A stretch of DNA of 64,000 nt from Clostridia bacterium (lineage in GTDB: Bacteria; Bacillota; Clostridia; Caldicoprobacterales; Caldicoprobacteraceae). Under the pieces are notes generated by a model. It was not told where the DNA came from. It saw nothing but the letters and a program-made list of their open reading frames with translations, and did no database searches. The stretch spans positions 62,001 through 126,000 of the forward strand of contig PKRC01000001.1 of assembly GCA_017577715.1 (NCBI GenBank), in the 5' to 3' direction. The position numbers and the translations under genes were made by a program. Below, in pieces: positions 28,121 to 62,414 of this stretch (positions are counted from its first letter, which is position 1; every line of letters starts with the position of its first letter).

Positions 28121-28672
28121 ATGGCTAGAAAAGATGCAAGGGAAGTGGCCATGAAGCTTTTATACCAGAAGGACATGTCGGGAGAAGCCGACATCGATTT
28201 ACTGCTTAAGATGGAACCGCATTACTCTATACATGAAAACGACAGGGAATACATATTGAACCTGCTGAACTTATTTGAAACCCATGCAGAGGAAATAGAT
28301 GGCCATATAAGGTCCTTCTCCAAAGGGTGGGAATTTTCTAGGATTGCCAAGGTGGACCTGGCCATACTGAGGTTGGCTCTGTGCGAAATCCTGTACCGCG
28401 ATGATATCCCGGTAAGCGTCTCCATAAACGAGGCGGTGGAGCTGGCCAAAAAGTTCAGCAACGACAAATCCGGCAGGTTTGTCAATGGGGTGCTGGGAGG
28501 TTTTATTCGCTCCCGGCAGATTGTACCAGAACAACATGTTATGCATAAGGAACAAACCACATCGGGCTATGAGGTTACGACTGACAACCCTACTGCATTG
28601 CAGCACAAAATCGCCACAGAGGAACAAATGTCTCTAGATGAAAATGTCAAGGTAGAGGAGAACCCGCAGTGA
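28121..28672 (+). CDS. nusB: Transcription antitermination factor NusB
   Basis: 183 residues. Residues 1-135 are a normal NusB (ARKDAREVAMKLLYQKDM; RIAKVDLAILRLALCEI; VSINEAVELAKKFSNDKSGRFVNGVLGG). It binds boxA RNA with NusE in rRNA antitermination. About 45 residues follow the end of the usual domain; this tail is polar, Gln/Glu/Thr rich and without recognisable motifs. AGGAGGAAA precedes the ATG. The stop overlaps the next gene. Confidence 0.95.
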   Translation: MARKDAREVAMKLLYQKDMSGEADIDLLLKMEPHYSIHENDREYILNLLNLFETHAEEIDGHIRSFSKGWEFSRIAKVDLAILRLALCEILYRDDIPVSVSINEAVELAKKFSNDKSGRFVNGVLGGFIRSRQIVPEQHVMHKEQTTSGYEVTTDNPTALQHKIATEEQMSLDENVKVEENPQ

Positions 28673-29646
28673 GATGCATCCTTGGCATGGATACCAGCTG
28701 TTATACCACGTCTATTGCTCTGGTGGATTTGGATGGAAATATCCTGCTAAGCAGGCAGATTCCCCTGGAAGTAGAGCCGGGACAAAGAGGCCTGCAACAG
28801 TCAAAGGCGTTGTTTCAGCATCTGCACCGGCTACCCCATATGGCTAGCGAGGTTGCAAGGGTCATCGATCCCAAGAATGAGCTGGCGGCCGTGTGCGCCA
28901 CCTGCAGGCCGCGTCCAGTAGAAGGTTCCTACATGCCGGTTTTCATGGTATCCCACCTTACAGGACAGGCCTTTGCCAACATGCTCGGCATTCCATATTA
29001 TGCTGTCAGCCATCAGGAAAGCCATATCCAGGCAGGGCTCTATTCTGCTGGAGGACCATGCAGCCAGCGCTTTTTAGCCATACATCTGTCGGGCGGCACA
29101 TCGGAGCTGCTAAAAGTTAATGATGTGGGTACAGGATTTGAAATTGAAATACTGGGGGCAACCCAGGATCTTCATGCTGGCCAGTTTGTCGACAGGATAG
29201 GGGTAGCAATGGGGCTTCAGTTTCCAGCAGGGGCTCATTTGGAGGAACTAGCGCGAAGAGGAAAGGATGGATATGTGACCATCCCTTTTTCTGTTAAAGG
29301 GCTGACCATAAGCTTCTCTGGGCCGGAAACCCATGCCCAGAGGCTGCTTGACAGAGGGGTTGATAAGGCAGATGTGGCTATAGCGGTATACAATTGCCTT
29401 GTAAGCACCCTTGAAAGGTGGATACTGAATGCTATGGACATCCCTGGCACGAATGTGAAGGATGTGCTGCTGGTTGGGGGCGTGGCATCGAGTGCCATAC
29501 TTCGCCAAAAGCTGGTTGATAGGCTAAGAAAACGGGATGAATCCATACGCCTTTATTTTGCCGATCCATTGCTCTCAAAGGATAATGCGGTGGGTACCGC
29601 CCTTTTGGGCTTAAAGCTTTACAGGCGGTCTAGGAGAGGAGGATAA
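28669..29646 (+). CDS. Kae1-like (TsaD-related) domain protein
   Basis: 325 residues of the ASKHA/Kae1 fold: CILGMDTSCYTTSIALVD (phosphate-1), the metal-binding HxxxH in SHQESHIQAG, IHLSGGTSELL (phosphate-2) and LLVGGVASSAILRQ. It is a paralogue of TsaD, which makes t6A in tRNA, but differs in the surrounding motifs, and the usual tsaB/tsaE partners are not here. Such Kae1-like genes occur next to nusB and folD in Clostridia. The activity is not known. GTG 28669 overlaps the nusB stop. Confidence 0.85.
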   Translation: MRCILGMDTSCYTTSIALVDLDGNILLSRQIPLEVEPGQRGLQQSKALFQHLHRLPHMASEVARVIDPKNELAAVCATCRPRPVEGSYMPVFMVSHLTGQAFANMLGIPYYAVSHQESHIQAGLYSAGGPCSQRFLAIHLSGGTSELLKVNDVGTGFEIEILGATQDLHAGQFVDRIGVAMGLQFPAGAHLEELARRGKDGYVTIPFSVKGLTISFSGPETHAQRLLDRGVDKADVAIAVYNCLVSTLERWILNAMDIPGTNVKDVLLVGGVASSAILRQKLVDRLRKRDESIRLYFADPLLSKDNAVGTALLGLKLYRRSRRGG

Positions 29647-31711: not shown

Positions 31712-31968
31712 GTCAGGAATGTAATAGGAATATATCAGAGTTGACTTTTGAAGAGGCTTTGAAAGAGCTGGAAATGGTAATATCGCGCCTTGAATCCGAC
31801 GATTTATCGCTGGATGAGGCTATTGAGCTGTTTAAACGGGGAGTTAGCCTTTCTGCTCACTGCAATGCGAAGCTGGAAAGGGCTGAAGGGACGGTAAAAC
31901 TGCTTATACAGAATCAGGGTAAAATTGAGGAAGTCCCTTTTATACCTGCTGAGGGAGATGAAGTATGA
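31708..31968 (+). CDS. xseB: Exodeoxyribonuclease VII small subunit
   Basis: 86 residues with the XseB core LTFEEALKELEMVISRLESDDLSLDEAIELF split over residues ~11-41 and the GVSLSAHCNAKL helix. It binds several per large subunit. The start overlaps xseA by 4 nt, and the end overlaps ispA by 4 nt. Confidence 0.95.
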   Translation: MSQECNRNISELTFEEALKELEMVISRLESDDLSLDEAIELFKRGVSLSAHCNAKLERAEGTVKLLIQNQGKIEEVPFIPAEGDEV

Positions 31969-32855
31969 ATTTTGACGAGATATACAGCAATAAACTGGAA
32001 CTGGTGGAGAGCGCTTTGAAGAAATTGATGGAGAGGCATCGCGATTGTCCCCCTACTTTATTCAGGGCAATGAATTATAGCTTATTTGCTGGTGGGAAAC
32101 GCATAAGGCCAGTGCTGCTGCTCTCAGCCCATGAATTGGTAGGAGGAGACATCAAAGAATCCATGGCGCTGGCCTGCGGGCTGGAGATGATTCACACCTA
32201 TTCATTGATACACGACGATCTGCCGGCCATGGACGATGATGATCTGCGCAGGGGTATGCCAACCAATCACAAGGTGTTTGGGGAAGGGATAGCCATATTG
32301 GCTGGCGATGCTCTCCTTAACCTGGCCTATGAGGTTTTTCTGGAGAACGCCATGAAATATCCCCATAAGCTGGAACGCCATGTAAGAGCGGCTTTTGTGA
32401 TAGCTAGGGCTGCGGGGCTTCATGGCATGATTGGTGGGCAGGTGGCTGACCTTGAGCAAGAAGGAAAAGATGTCCAGCCCGATATGCTTTATTATATTCA
32501 CACCCACAAGACCGGAGCACTGATAGAAGCTGCCGTAAGGGCAGGTGCCATGCTTGAGCTCATCGAGAAGGATGTGGAGGATGCCATTGCAAAATACGGG
32601 CAAAACCTCGGGCTAGCATTTCAAATAGTAGATGACATCTTGGATGTTATAGGGAATGTAACCGATATGGGCAAAAATCCCAGCAGGGATGAGAAGCGCC
32701 AAAAAGCTACTTTCCCGGCTCTGTATGGTTTAGAGGAGTCGAAGCGTATGGCACAGGACTTGATTGAACAAGCGGTAAGCCATCTGGAACGCTTCGGCAA
32801 AGATGCATATTTTCTAAAAGAGATTGCCTATTATGTCTTGAGGCGCCAGAAATAG
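31965..32855 (+). CDS. ispA: Polyprenyl (farnesyl/geranylgeranyl) diphosphate synthase
   Basis: 296 residues. First aspartate-rich motif DDLPAMD (residues ~85-91) preceded by YSLIH, second motif DDILD (~223-227), and GGKRIRP for diphosphate binding. The bulky residues before the first motif (IHTYSLIHDD) fit a medium-chain enzyme such as FPP synthase. It condenses IPP with allylic diphosphates. The order xseB-ispA and the nearby dxs form an isoprenoid block interrupted by the OLE locus. Confidence 0.94.
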   Translation: MNFDEIYSNKLELVESALKKLMERHRDCPPTLFRAMNYSLFAGGKRIRPVLLLSAHELVGGDIKESMALACGLEMIHTYSLIHDDLPAMDDDDLRRGMPTNHKVFGEGIAILAGDALLNLAYEVFLENAMKYPHKLERHVRAAFVIARAAGLHGMIGGQVADLEQEGKDVQPDMLYYIHTHKTGALIEAAVRAGAMLELIEKDVEDAIAKYGQNLGLAFQIVDDILDVIGNVTDMGKNPSRDEKRQKATFPALYGLEESKRMAQDLIEQAVSHLERFGKDAYFLKEIAYYVLRRQK

Positions 32856-32865
32856 GAGGTGCTGG

Positions 32866-33309
32866 ATGGAACAGCTCAAGCAGCTCGCTTCTAATTCGGC
32901 TTTATGGGTAAGCTTTCTGGCGTGGTTTATTGCCCAGACGTCCAAGGTGATCTTGACGGTGTTGACCCATAAAAAATTGGATCTGCGCAGGTTTGTGGGT
33001 TCAGGCGGCATGCCCAGCTCTCACACTGCCCTTGTGGTTTCCTTGGCTACTGCGCTCGGAGAAATAAATGGCTATGATTCCGATATATTTGCGCTGTCTT
33101 TGGTGTTCGCATTTGTGGTCATGTACGATGCGGCAGGAGTAAGGAGGGCGGCTGGAAAACAGGCCGCCGTGCTCAATGAGATATTGGAAAGGTTGCAGGA
33201 GGGCAAGGATGTTCCGCAGGAAAAGTTAAAGGAACTCATTGGACACACGCCCATAGAAGTCATAGTGGGCGCCATCTTGGGCTTTGTGATAGCTAAGCTG
33301 TTGCTGTAA
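32866..33309 (+). CDS. Divergent PAP2 family protein (DUF212/YuiD)
   Basis: 147 residues with three or four membrane segments and the motifs WFIAQTSKV, GGMPSSHTALVVSL and MYDAAGVRRAAGKQA. The PSSH block resembles the PAP2 phosphatase motif 2; the family is called divergent PAP2. A phosphatase acting on lipid (possibly prenyl) phosphates is plausible next to ispA, but not shown. AGGAGG precedes ATG 32866. The OLE promoter begins 4 nt after its stop. Confidence 0.9.
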   Translation: MEQLKQLASNSALWVSFLAWFIAQTSKVILTVLTHKKLDLRRFVGSGGMPSSHTALVVSLATALGEINGYDSDIFALSLVFAFVVMYDAAGVRRAAGKQAAVLNEILERLQEGKDVPQEKLKELIGHTPIEVIVGAILGFVIAKLLL

Positions 33310-33312
33310 AAT

Positions 33313-33341
33313 TTGAATTTTGGGGGCTGTTATGATATAAT
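33313..33341 (+). promoter_or_regulatory. Sigma-A promoter of OLE RNA
   Basis: TTGAAT (33313-33318), a 17-nt spacer and perfect TATAAT (33336-33341) lie directly after the DUF212 gene. The predicted transcription start is near 33348, just before the closing stem of OLE RNA. Confidence 0.75.
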
Positions 33342-33347
33342 ACTATT

Positions 33348-33955
33348 CAAGGAAATAATCTGTTACGTGGTGGTGCAGTATTCTAGTCAGCTCGGCCAAT
33401 TTTGAAGACGGGCCTAAAAATCCGTCAAGGGCACATCGATGAAGTTCCTGGTGCTGGCTCTCGACGCCCAGTCGGGGGTTGGTGCTGGGAGTTAAGGAAG
33501 GTGGGCGACCCGCAAAGGCATGCGGGCGTTGACCCATCTTCCGCGGAGACCCAAGTGGGTGGTAACCATCGTTTGCTACTACTTGGGCATGAACCTGTAT
33601 CGCGGCGAAAAGCTGTGTACAGTGTAGCCTGCCTTGAGTGGTATGGGTGGATTACAGATCAGGTTTCGGCACAATAGGGCCCATTGTGCGGAAACTATTG
33701 CTGTATGAAACCCATGCTGCAAAAGAGGCTAGAAATTGGCTGTAGCTGTCGGGGAAAGCCCCTAGACTGCTGTACGGTGTGTTGGGGATTACAGTGTGGT
33801 CTAAGTGGTGATCCAGTTTTACCGTTGGCGACACGGTAAGGCGGGGTTTAAAGGGAAACCGCTTCTTCGGCGACGGGAAGTACCCTGCCGGGAAATCCTA
33901 CTGGACCTTAAGCCGCAAAGTCTACCCAACACATCACCACCACGGTACATATACA
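33348..33955 (+). ncRNA. ole: OLE RNA (ornate, large, extremophilic)
   Basis: A ~600-nt non-coding stretch, GC-rich and structured, between the DUF212 gene and oapA. GTGGTGGTG (33367-33375) and CACCACCAC (33935-33943) form a terminal closing stem. Inner hairpins include CCCGCA/TGCGGG (33509-33526), CCCAAGT/ACTTGGG (33550-33587), GCACAAT/ATTGTGC (33669-33689) and ACCGT/ACGGT near 33830. Length, closing stem and the order xseB-ispA-RNA-oapA-dxs match OLE RNA as described in extremophilic and anaerobic Firmicutes, where it binds OapA at the membrane and affects tolerance to cold, alcohols and Mg2+. Short frames inside are not coding. Ends are estimated from the promoter and stem; a covariance search was not possible. 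Confidence 0.9.
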
Positions 33956-33987
33956 TATAGTTAGTTGATAGGGAGCGTGCATACCAC

Positions 33988-34722
33988 TTGTCCAAGGATG
34001 ATGGAGATCCATATAAGAGTATTAATGCTAAAAAAAGGGCAAGAATAAAAGATCAGAAAAATAACAAGAATGGTAAAAATGACGAGAATGGCAAGAATGG
34101 TAAGAATGGCAAGAATGGTAAAAATGGCAAAAAATGCAACAATGGATGGGCAAGAAAGGTCTTCGTTTTGACGTTTGTCATTGCATGTGCGTTTAGCTTT
34201 ATTTCAGAAGCCACCATTCGAAGGATGAGTAACTTAATAGTAGCAGCATTAATCTTATTCGTAATCATATTAATAGGCATAGTTTTTGATATAATAGGCA
34301 TCGCAGTGACATCTGCCTCTGAGGTGCCTTTTGTGTCTATGGCGTCCAAAAAAATACGCGGAGCCAAGGAAGCTATACGCCTTATAAGGAAAGCTGACCA
34401 GGTCAGCAGCTTTTGTAACGACGTGGTGGGCGACATCTGCGGAATTATCAGCGGTGCTGCTGGCGGCGTATTGACCTTGAAAATTATTGGGACAGACTTC
34501 ACGACATTGGAAGAAAGTCTCTTGAGCATAATAATAAGTAGTTTGATCGCTGCCCTTACGGTGGCGGGCAAGGCTCTGGGTAAAAGCTTTGCCATCACCA
34601 ATTGCGATAAAGTGGTGTATTATACGGCATACTTTTTGTCATTGTTAAATGAAAAGATAGACGTGCTGAACGGCAAGAAAAATTCTAAAGGCAATGCAGT
34701 TATGAAAGCGAGAGAGAATTAG
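33988..34722 (+). CDS. oapA: OLE-associated protein A (OapA)
   Basis: 244 residues. Positively charged N terminus with an Asn-Gly-Lys repeat (residues ~26-48), then about four membrane helices (VFVLTFVIACAFSFI, ~58-72; LIVAALILFVIILIGIVF, ~83-100; GIISGAAGGVLTLKI, ~154-168; SIIISSLIAALTVAG, ~182-196). The segment IGIAVTSASEVPF and what follows resembles the DUF21/CNNM (CorB-like) domain, as in known OapA. OapA is the membrane protein that anchors OLE RNA. TTG 33988 is the first start in frame, but GGGAG is 13 nt upstream, so the start is uncertain. It ends immediately before dxs. Confidence 0.88.
   Translation: MSKDDGDPYKSINAKKRARIKDQKNNKNGKNDENGKNGKNGKNGKNGKKCNNGWARKVFVLTFVIACAFSFISEATIRRMSNLIVAALILFVIILIGIVFDIIGIAVTSASEVPFVSMASKKIRGAKEAIRLIRKADQVSSFCNDVVGDICGIISGAAGGVLTLKIIGTDFTTLEESLLSIIISSLIAALTVAGKALGKSFAITNCDKVVYYTAYFLSLLNEKIDVLNGKKNSKGNAVMKAREN
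34063..34131 (+). repeat. 9-bp tandem repeat encoding Asn-Gly-Lys units in oapA
   Basis: About eight units of a 9-bp sequence of the type AATGGYAAR encode N-G-K (one unit reads N-D-E). The alternation of GGT and GGC and of AAG and AAA indicates the copies have begun to diverge. Such repeats can change in number by slippage without shifting the frame. Confidence 0.85.
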
Positions 34723-36621
34723 ATGGGCAGATATCCGCTGCTAGAATGCATTGACTCGCCTAAGGATTTGAAGCGTTTAAATATAGGAGAACTAAAGCAG
34801 CTGGCCGAAGAGATAAGGCGATTTCTGCTGGATAAAGTGTCCAAGACGGGAGGGCACTTGGCTTCAAATCTCGGTGTGGTGGAGCTGACCATTGCACTTC
34901 ACTACGTATTTAATAGCCCCTTTGATAAGATCATCTGGGACGTGGGACACCAGGCATATGTGCACAAGATACTAACGGGGCGAAGAGATCAGTTCGATTC
35001 ATTGCGCCAGTTTGGGGGATTAAGCGGTTTTCCAAAGCGCAAGGAAAGCGTGCACGATGTGTTTGATACGGGGCATAGCAGCACCTCTATTTCGGCTGCG
35101 CTGGGCATGGCCCGTGCCAGGGATTTAAAGAATGAAAAGTACAGCGTAATAGCGGTGATCGGCGATGGTGCCCTAACCGGAGGTATGGCTTTTGAGGCCT
35201 TAAACGATGCTGGCCATTCCAAGACCAACCTCATAGTTATATTAAACGACAACGAGATGTCCATATCCGAAAACGTAGGCGCTTTGGCTGCTTACCTATC
35301 AAGGGTCAGATCAAATCCCAGATATACCAGGGTTAAAAAGGGGATAAATTCGCTGCTACGTAAAATCCCGCGGATGGGTCAATATTTTGCCAATTTAATT
35401 GAAAAGTTCAAAAACAGCTTTAAATATCTCTTGATTTCGGGAATGTTCTTCGAGCAGATGGGTTTTACCTATATAGGGCCTATTGACGGCCATAACCTGG
35501 CAGCTCTAATTGACGTGTTGAAGAGAGCTACCATGGTGGAAGGGCCTGTACTCATCCATGTGGTCACCGAGAAAGGGAGGGGCTATGGTTTTGCCGAAAA
35601 AAATCCCGAGCTGTTTCATGGGGTTCCTCCCTTTGACGTGCACAGCGGCGAGATAAGCGTAAAAGGCGAGGTTACCTTTTCCCATGCTTTTGGTCAACAC
35701 TTGGTGGAGATGGCCCAGCAGGATCCAAGGATTGTAGCCATTACGGCGGCCATGCCTGAAGGTACCGGCCTGATTGAGTTTAAAAAGCGATTTCCCAATC
35801 GCTTTTTTGATGTAGGCATCGCAGAACAGCATGCCGTCACGATGGCTGCGGGGCTGGCGGCTAACGGTTTTAGGCCATATGTGGCTATTTACTCTACATT
35901 TTTGCAACGGGCCTACGACCAGATACTCCACGATGTGTGTCTTCAAAATCTTCCAGTGGTGCTGGCAGTCGATAGGGCCGGCATAGTAGGCGAGGATGGT
36001 GAAACCCATCACGGGGTGTTCGATATAAGCTACCTGCGACATATACCCAACATCACCGTGATGGCTCCCAAGAATATAGTCGAGCTTAAGGAGATGCTGG
36101 ATTATTCCTTGACCATGGAAGGACCGGTAGCCATTCGTTATCCCAAAGGCAACACTGGGATAGATGATGCGTCTCCTGTAAAGCCGCTGGAAGGCTTGAA
36201 GTGGGAAACCATGGTTAATGGGAGCGATTGTTGCATATTTAGCTTTGGCAGGATGTTAAAGGTGGCCTTGGAAGTTGCCAGCATCCTCAGAAGGGATGGC
36301 ATAAGCACTTGTGTGGTAAATGCAAGGATTATCAAGCCGCTGGATGAACAGCTGCTTATGGATATTTCAAATTGCATAGTCAGATGGATTACCCTGGAGG
36401 ATACCGTCCTTCAGGGAGGTTTCGGGAGCAGCATAAACGAGTTTGTTGCTGCCCATCAACTACCAGTGTGTGTGATGAATTTGGGAGTAAATGATAGCTT
36501 TGTCCCCCACGGTTCGGTGGAGCGCTTGCTCAACGAGCTGGGACTTGATTCACACAGCGTAGCATTTAAAATAAAGAAATTTTTGAGCGGATATAGAAAG
36601 AGGGCTTATGTCAACTTCTAA
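34723..36621 (+). CDS. dxs: 1-deoxy-D-xylulose-5-phosphate synthase
   Basis: 632 residues, full length. ThDP-binding GDGALTGGMAFEALNDAG and the following NDNEMSIS; GHSSTSISAALG near the start; the catalytic region DVGIAEQHAVTMAAGLA; DRAGIVGEDGETHHG in the transketolase pyrimidine domain. It makes DXP from pyruvate and glyceraldehyde 3-phosphate, first step of the MEP isoprenoid pathway. ATG 34723 follows the oapA stop without a gap, so the two are translationally coupled. Its stop overlaps tlyA by 14 nt. Confidence 0.97.
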   Translation: MGRYPLLECIDSPKDLKRLNIGELKQLAEEIRRFLLDKVSKTGGHLASNLGVVELTIALHYVFNSPFDKIIWDVGHQAYVHKILTGRRDQFDSLRQFGGLSGFPKRKESVHDVFDTGHSSTSISAALGMARARDLKNEKYSVIAVIGDGALTGGMAFEALNDAGHSKTNLIVILNDNEMSISENVGALAAYLSRVRSNPRYTRVKKGINSLLRKIPRMGQYFANLIEKFKNSFKYLLISGMFFEQMGFTYIGPIDGHNLAALIDVLKRATMVEGPVLIHVVTEKGRGYGFAEKNPELFHGVPPFDVHSGEISVKGEVTFSHAFGQHLVEMAQQDPRIVAITAAMPEGTGLIEFKKRFPNRFFDVGIAEQHAVTMAAGLAANGFRPYVAIYSTFLQRAYDQILHDVCLQNLPVVLAVDRAGIVGEDGETHHGVFDISYLRHIPNITVMAPKNIVELKEMLDYSLTMEGPVAIRYPKGNTGIDDASPVKPLEGLKWETMVNGSDCCIFSFGRMLKVALEVASILRRDGISTCVVNARIIKPLDEQLLMDISNCIVRWITLEDTVLQGGFGSSINEFVAAHQLPVCVMNLGVNDSFVPHGSVERLLNELGLDSHSVAFKIKKFLSGYRKRAYVNF

Positions 36622-61640: not shown

Positions 61641-62414
61641 ATGAGGATTTTAGTATGTAACGATGATGGCATCTCTTCCAAAGGGATCATAGAGCTGGCC
61701 AAAAGCATGAGCAGGATTGGAGAAGTGGTGGTAGCAGCTCCCGACGAGGAGAGGAGCGCCATAGGCCATGCCATAACGCTACATAAACCCCTTAGGATAG
61801 AGCCGGTAAAGCTTCACGATGTGGATATTGAGGCATATTCCATCAATGGCACCCCGGCTGATTGCGTGAAGATCGGCGTTGACGTCATAATGAAGAGAAA
61901 GGTGGACCTGGTCATATCGGGCATCAATAGGGGACCCAATTTGGGCACTGATGTCCTATATTCCGGCACCGTATCGGCGGCCATTGAAGGCTGTATTCTC
62001 GGTATTCCCTCTGTTGCCATATCGCTGGTGTCGTATAAGTCTGACGATTTTTCGTATGCTGGTGAGGTGGCAGTGGAGGTGGCTCAAAAGCTGCTTGAGC
62101 ATGGGCTGCCCAAGGGAGCTCTGCTCAACGTGAATGTACCTGCGGTGCCAAAGGAGGAGATAAGAGGTATAAAGGTTGCACGTCTGGGTATACGGCGTTA
62201 TGCCGAGACATATATCAAACGGCTGGATCCACGAGGTAGGCCATATTACTGGCTTACCGGGGAAGCTATCGATACTTCCCAAGAGGATATGCAGTTGGAT
62301 ACCGATATATTTGCTGTAAAGGAAAATTACGTTGCCGTAACGCCAATTCATCTGGATTTAACGCTTTATTCGTTTATGGATGCGGTGAAAGAGTGGTTTA
62401 ATAAAGGCCAATAG
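61641..62414 (+). CDS. surE: 5'/3'-nucleotidase SurE
   Basis: 257 residues: N-terminal LVCNDDGISSKGI with metal-binding Asp pair, AAPDEERSAIGHAIT, SINGTPADCVKIG and ISGINRGPNLGTDVLYSGTVSAA (spread over ~94-116). It removes phosphate from nucleoside monophosphates and exopolyphosphate. GAAGGAGATGAGG precedes ATG 61641. Confidence 0.96.
   Translation: MRILVCNDDGISSKGIIELAKSMSRIGEVVVAAPDEERSAIGHAITLHKPLRIEPVKLHDVDIEAYSINGTPADCVKIGVDVIMKRKVDLVISGINRGPNLGTDVLYSGTVSAAIEGCILGIPSVAISLVSYKSDDFSYAGEVAVEVAQKLLEHGLPKGALLNVNVPAVPKEEIRGIKVARLGIRRYAETYIKRLDPRGRPYYWLTGEAIDTSQEDMQLDTDIFAVKENYVAVTPIHLDLTLYSFMDAVKEWFNKGQ

Follow-up and report, generated by a model that had tools for sequence, protein, structure and literature searches.

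The OLE RNA and its dimer loops

The stretch of DNA analysed here (the window; 64,000 nucleotides, positions 62,001 to 126,000 of the forward strand of contig PKRC01000001.1 of a Clostridia bacterium) carries, between an ispA-type gene and dxs, a complete OLE RNA followed directly by the gene for its membrane partner OapA. OLE is one of the biggest conserved RNAs of bacteria for which, to our knowledge, no biochemical function has been established. The RNA and its promoter comprise the following features:

33313..33341, + strand, ole promoter (-35 TTGAAT at 33313-33318, spacer of 17, -10 TATAAT at 33336-33341)
33354..33956, + strand, OLE RNA, full-length type (RF01071, 552.8 bits)
33366..33375, + strand, 5' strand of the P1 closing stem, CGTGGTGGTG, pairing with 33935-33944
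33416..33420, + strand, A-run of loop L4, CTAAAAAT, a published A-A dimer bridge
33677..33682, + strand, self-complementary loop L9, GGGCCC, a published kissing-loop dimer contact
33935..33944, + strand, 3' strand of the P1 closing stem, CACCACCACG, pairing with 33366-33375

A search with the Rfam covariance model for OLE (RF01071) matched 33354-33956 on the forward strand with 552.8 bits (E 2.2e-159, gathering cut-off 50), and the match extended over positions 1-616 of the 616 in the model; a search of the genome identified this one copy only. An earlier note on this DNA had proposed an OLE RNA here and had named a missing covariance-model match as grounds for abandoning the idea; the match is present, and it is near certain that we are dealing with the OLE ribonucleoprotein locus of a Caldicoprobacter bacterium, a spore former. 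In Caldicoprobacter oshimai, of the same genus, the ole promoter and oapA are arranged as in the window. The RNA departs from the Rfam model at two places: the 4-bp hairpin at model positions 424-435 is missing, and the hairpin at about 198-241 has a loop shortened by 6 nt; as the remaining Rfam stems are all covered, we class this RNA with the full-length type of PMC11332333 (this and the other PMC papers are cited from partial text). The closing stem, given earlier as 9 bp (33367-33375 with 33935-33943), is indeed there, but is one pair longer, at 10 bp.

For comparison we looked at 147 OLE loci and dropped six that lacked the exact 5' motif, among them L045 and L046, which had replaced the pieces (L027-L030) of two broken copies. 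The loci from across the phylum represent 119 of the 290 genomes with OLE (398 searched), being the best-scoring among the matches listed, and lean to high scores. In 140 loci the P1 helix formed by a locus' own strands had a median of 12 bp, whereas mixing the strands of different loci gave 7 bp, and helices of at least 9 bp were found in 122/140 own-partner and 447/2100 cross-partner pairings; the own 3' region was placed by best pairing, which favours the own-partner figure somewhat. As own-partner helices are the longer, P1 covaries.

Judged by sequence alone, the window's RNA has all of the loops implicated in dimer contacts, namely L4 (CTAAAAAT), L5.1 (CGCCCAG), L6.1 (CAAAGGCATG) and L9 (GGGCCC). 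Of 141 loci, 137 keep the L4 sequence, 123 keep CGCCCAG and all have the GGCAT core of L6.1, while a self-complementary tetranucleotide from a chosen list occurs in the L9 region of 134/141 (a count without a chance control; four of the seven misses are alignment gaps). The palindrome GGGCCC of the window is GGATCC or GAGCTC in relatives, and switches of this type have been reported as evidence for the kissing loop (PMC12286853); the A-A bridge at the L4 A-run is described in the same paper. Compared to the OLE RNAs of Halalkalibacterium halodurans and Clostridium, that of the window has the same full-length architecture, P1 and dimer loops, its own promoter, an adjacent oapA, and OapB, OapC and bS21 encoded in the genome; it differs in its host, Caldicoprobacter, and in the loss of the hairpin at 424-435. 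Its L9 palindrome has six letters, whereas that of C. acetobutylicum OLE in the structure paper has four.

The ole promoter

The TTGAAT-N17-TATAAT promoter proposed earlier is present ahead of OLE; its -10 element is extended by a TG at 33333-33334 (TGaTATAAT), and transcription is predicted to start near 33348. A consensus promoter scan of 7 kb found nine promoter-like sites where 9.9 were expected, i.e., the chance level, and we therefore tested the promoter by cross-locus comparison, using the 139 OLE loci whose upstream sequence is 100 nt or longer. TGn followed by a -10 element (at least 5/6 matches) was found within ~45 nt of P1 in 108/139 loci vs 4.5% of mononucleotide shuffles of these same regions; without the TG requirement the figures were 132/139 and 46%, and 124/139 also had a -35 element (at least 3/6) at 16-18 nt, the last figure being without a shuffle control. 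Six of the family's seven genomes (G006 left out) were compared, and all have the same -35, the same TG and the same letters at five of six -10 positions. The comparison with shuffles (108/139 vs 4.5%) bears out the idea of a dedicated promoter. We regard this as a confirmation, as such a promoter has already been published for Bacillus (Halalkalibacterium) halodurans, whose ole lies in a large operon, has its own promoter too, and presumably yields a ~630-nt RNA by processing (PMC9723947). No terminator-like site was called between OLE and oapA, and the window's ole is probably both read through and separately initiated.

OapA, a CNNM-like membrane protein

The membrane partner and the elements discussed below are as follows:

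33970..33975, + strand, oapA ribosome-binding site AGGGAG, read from the sequence
33988..34722, + strand, oapA, 244 aa, CNNM-like membrane partner of OLE, TTG start
33988..34158, + strand, N-terminal basic tail, codons 1-57 (18 K/R, 6 D/E)
34065..34145, + strand, 9-bp tandem repeat coding for Lys-Asn-Gly units in the tail (repeat search, codons)

The gene adjoins OLE, its start codon lying 32 nt beyond the end of the model match and 43 nt past P1, and its ribosome-binding site 25 nt past P1. The four-helix membrane protein that had been read directly ahead of dxs is OapA (33988-34722). Its DxxxD motif is D145-V-V-G-D149, with both aspartates invariant in 65 of 65 rows compared; DxxxD is given as the defining motif of OapA (PMC11332333). 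A structure model and its structural match indicate four predicted membrane helices with a CNNM-like fold. The CNNM Pfam score was 24.3 bits, below the cut-off of 28.4, and a PDB sequence-profile search identified no CNNM chain, its only row (E 0.43) being a chance match; we draw the CNNM relation from the Pfam score below cut-off together with the fold. The membrane domain shares its fold with those of the MpfA/CorC/CorB (CNNM) magnesium transporters; OapA differs in having an extra first helix and a tail, neither of which falls within the matched region (residues 81-231), and no CBS or CorC domain was matched in its 244 residues at E-values up to 1. Under a definition that asks for a CNNM domain above cut-off followed by CBS and CorC domains, it is not an MpfA/CorC transporter. 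With OapA proteins elsewhere it shares the DxxxD motif, the four predicted membrane helices, a basic inter-helix loop and the ole-oapA order; what sets it apart is an N-terminal tail that is basic, 57 residues long and contains Lys-Asn-Gly repeats, the median length in other classes of the phylum being 16 residues.

OapA starts were chosen by ribosome-binding site, and of 140 proteins three without a usable start and 25 with a weak site were dropped, leaving 112; the scoring across loci used a frame shifted by one in the window (GGGAGC). TTG was the best-supported start in 81/112. Under one ribosome-binding-site rule, TTG was called for oapA in 64/84 loci and for the next gene in 39/84, a paired excess of 35 to 10 (p 0.0002). 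As the rate for the next gene is itself high, the rule probably over-calls TTG; this weakens the case for TTG as a special mark of oapA, and the excess is suggestive only.

The basic tail of OapA

The tail is the window's distinctive feature and did not appear in the earlier note. At 57 residues before the first membrane helix, with a net charge of +12, it is the longest of the 112 compared. Lengths are 57, 49, 48 and 33 in its own genus and 39 and 37 in the sister genus; the median is 28 in the class (26 loci, own family included) vs 16 in the phylum's other classes (86 loci), a difference with a Mann-Whitney p of 6e-9, or 2e-6 without the own family, shared descent being ignored. The K/R share is likewise 0.32 in the class vs 0.21 in the other classes, again ignoring shared descent. 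Tails were net positive in 109/112 OapA proteins, so that a basic stretch as such is general. In the predicted model, residues 1-50 have pLDDT block means of 44-54, and the tail is thus predicted to be disordered to about residue 50, as expected of a disordered arm.

One account of this tail is repeat slippage in a loosely constrained stretch before the first helix, with no role in RNA binding, and we give it an even chance. The 9-bp tandem array, the variable length within the genus and the amino-acid changes in four of the nine repeat units all fit slippage, as does the positive charge, which is usual before a first membrane helix (the positive-inside rule). It accounts less well for the other five units, which are all Gly-Lys-Asn and differ at silent positions only, for the conservation of its start (MSKDD or MSNDD) throughout the six family members compared, and for the raised length across the class, although the last comparison, as said, ignores shared descent. 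More doubtful, in our view, is the alternative that this Lys-rich, repeat-built arm serves the OLE complex as an RNA-binding module, having grown in the class, and most in Caldicoprobacter. If so, the arm would lie on the cytoplasmic side beside domain 1 of the OLE dimer and would tune the affinity or stability of the complex. It would also add positive charge near an OLE stem that has been proposed to cross the membrane, and for which too little protein shielding was found (PMC12265935).

The word lysine is absent from the main text of PMC12265935, PMC12054373 and PMC11332333, and in the literature searched, which did not take in PMC9723947, PMC10898510, Harris 2018 or Block 2011, no paper brought together OapA, OLE RNA and "lysine-rich", nor Caldicoprobacter and OLE RNA; given this limited scope, not having found the tail described there is no proof of novelty. 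We regard the window's OLE and OapA as a complete copy of a known kind, with the tail as the modest new lead, and as a simple, removable element it could serve to probe how OapA holds OLE.

Partners and co-occurrence

The genome of the window also encodes a 94-aa homolog of OapB, a 92-aa OapC/YbxF and bS21, and so has all of the published partners tested (OapA, OapB, OapC and bS21). OapB and OapC are common, if not universal, in OLE hosts. From ORF reading without a family search, the neighbours of OapB look like map and infA, and those of OapC like rpoC and rpsL. Caldicoprobacter is thermophilic and has cultured members, and may therefore give stabler particles for structures of domain 2, which is unresolved, and of the RNA-OapA contact.

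In a set of 61 genomes (that of the window and 60 relatives) OLE was present in 28, and OapA in 28/28 genomes with OLE vs 1/33 without. It has been suggested that OLE and OapA may never occur apart (PMC11332333). The single exception, G033, is a 0.9-Mb genome of the same class with a completeness of 100, whose OapA (L043:2871-3470) has the DxxxD motif and whose oapA neighbours look, by ORF reading, like proS and infC; no OLE was found there in a single-genome search at E-values up to 10, or in an Rfam scan with permissive settings over the 5.5 kb surrounding oapA. Large CNNM proteins were found in 15/28 genomes with OLE vs 30/33 without, which repeats in this small set an anticorrelation reported earlier (PMC11332333). 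The window's own genome has, beside OLE, a CorC/MpfA-type CNNM protein (G000:C22:3284-3868, locus L044); the same search identified no large CNNM protein in the other three genomes of the genus. As the contig of L044 is only 10 kb, it is possibly a contaminant. The gene is flanked by ORFs of 255 and 281 aa that are nearly identical to each other and of unassigned kind.

A working model and its alternatives

We put at roughly 70% the probability that both the identity of the locus and the published working model hold, in which a dimer of OLE serves at the membrane as a scaffold for OapA, putatively a transporter of metals. Following published work, OLE would be transcribed from its own promoter as well as with the operon, released by cleavage close to the oapA ribosome-binding site, closed on itself via P1, and paired with a second OLE via L4, the loops of L5/L6 and the P9 loop GGGCCC. 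OapA, with its four helices and CNNM/CorC fold, would hold the RNA at the membrane, where OapB, OapC and bS21 would join the complex. OLE most likely substitutes for the cytosolic regulatory domains of CNNM-type transporters, which were not found in OapA, and the OLE-OapA complex would thereby adjust stress physiology and the flux of divalent metals; the long basic tail may add an electrostatic RNA contact on the cytoplasmic side. We infer every part of this model that sequence, co-occurrence and predicted fold do not show, including the placement of the tail on the cytoplasmic side.

Based on its size and conservation, which are ribozyme-like (PMC11332333, PMC12265935), OLE might instead catalyze some reaction, with OapA mainly a membrane anchor. 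We consider this unlikely: there is no known reaction, the window offers nothing that bears on catalysis, and the CNNM-like fold of OapA together with the anticorrelation with CNNM proteins points to metal transport.

It is very unlikely that OLE acts mainly as a cis leader for the translation of oapA, in which P1 would open and its 3' strand pair with the ribosome-binding site to shut it off. The short distances from P1 to this site and to the start codon (25 and 43 nt) would suit such a switch, and three relatives (L004, L096 and L109) have a hairpin between the P1 3' strand and the site (z -2.9, -3.8 and -2.5). In the window, however, shuffled sequences fold more strongly than the real one (z +1.36), and the site stays 59% unpaired when the P1 strand is included, compared to 54% when it is omitted; masking by the P1 3' strand is accordingly rejected for the window. 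Over 93 loci the median z was -0.30, with 26 below -1, five below -2 and six above +1, and published reports describe OLE as an abundant, separate RNA of ~630 nt to which OapA binds at the membrane (PMC9723947, PMC12265935). The strong hairpins of L004, L096 and L109 are possible switches in their own right that the window lacks. A chance stem or an unrelated intergenic RNA is ruled out by the RF01071 match.

Gene neighbourhood

The genes flanking ole and oapA are:

31965..32855, + strand, ispA-type polyprenyl synthetase (PF00348, 194.2 bits)
32866..33309, + strand, DUF212 (divergent PAP2) gene upstream of ole (PF02681, 174.8 bits)
34723..36621, + strand, dxs (PF13292, 431.7 bits), starting at 34723 directly after the oapA stop

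Upstream the order is spoIIIAE, nusB, a TsaD-like gene, folD, xseA, xseB, ispA, DUF212 and ole (with some ORFs, without a family search, between spoIIIAE and nusB), and downstream of ole it is oapA, dxs, an FtsJ/S4 methyltransferase, an NAD-kinase-like gene, argR, recN, spoIVB and spo0A. The isoprenoid setting (ispA, dxs) claimed earlier is thus borne out as an isoprenoid and sporulation neighbourhood. Such an ole neighbourhood has been described, and ArgR was named as a possible partner from unpublished work (PMC12265935). In one relative, L025, a hairpin and then a T-rich stretch come right after OLE, and oapA is farther off than in most loci. The TsaD-like gene of the window (28669-29646) scored 126 bits against TsaD cut-offs of 208 and 296 and is perhaps a paralog.
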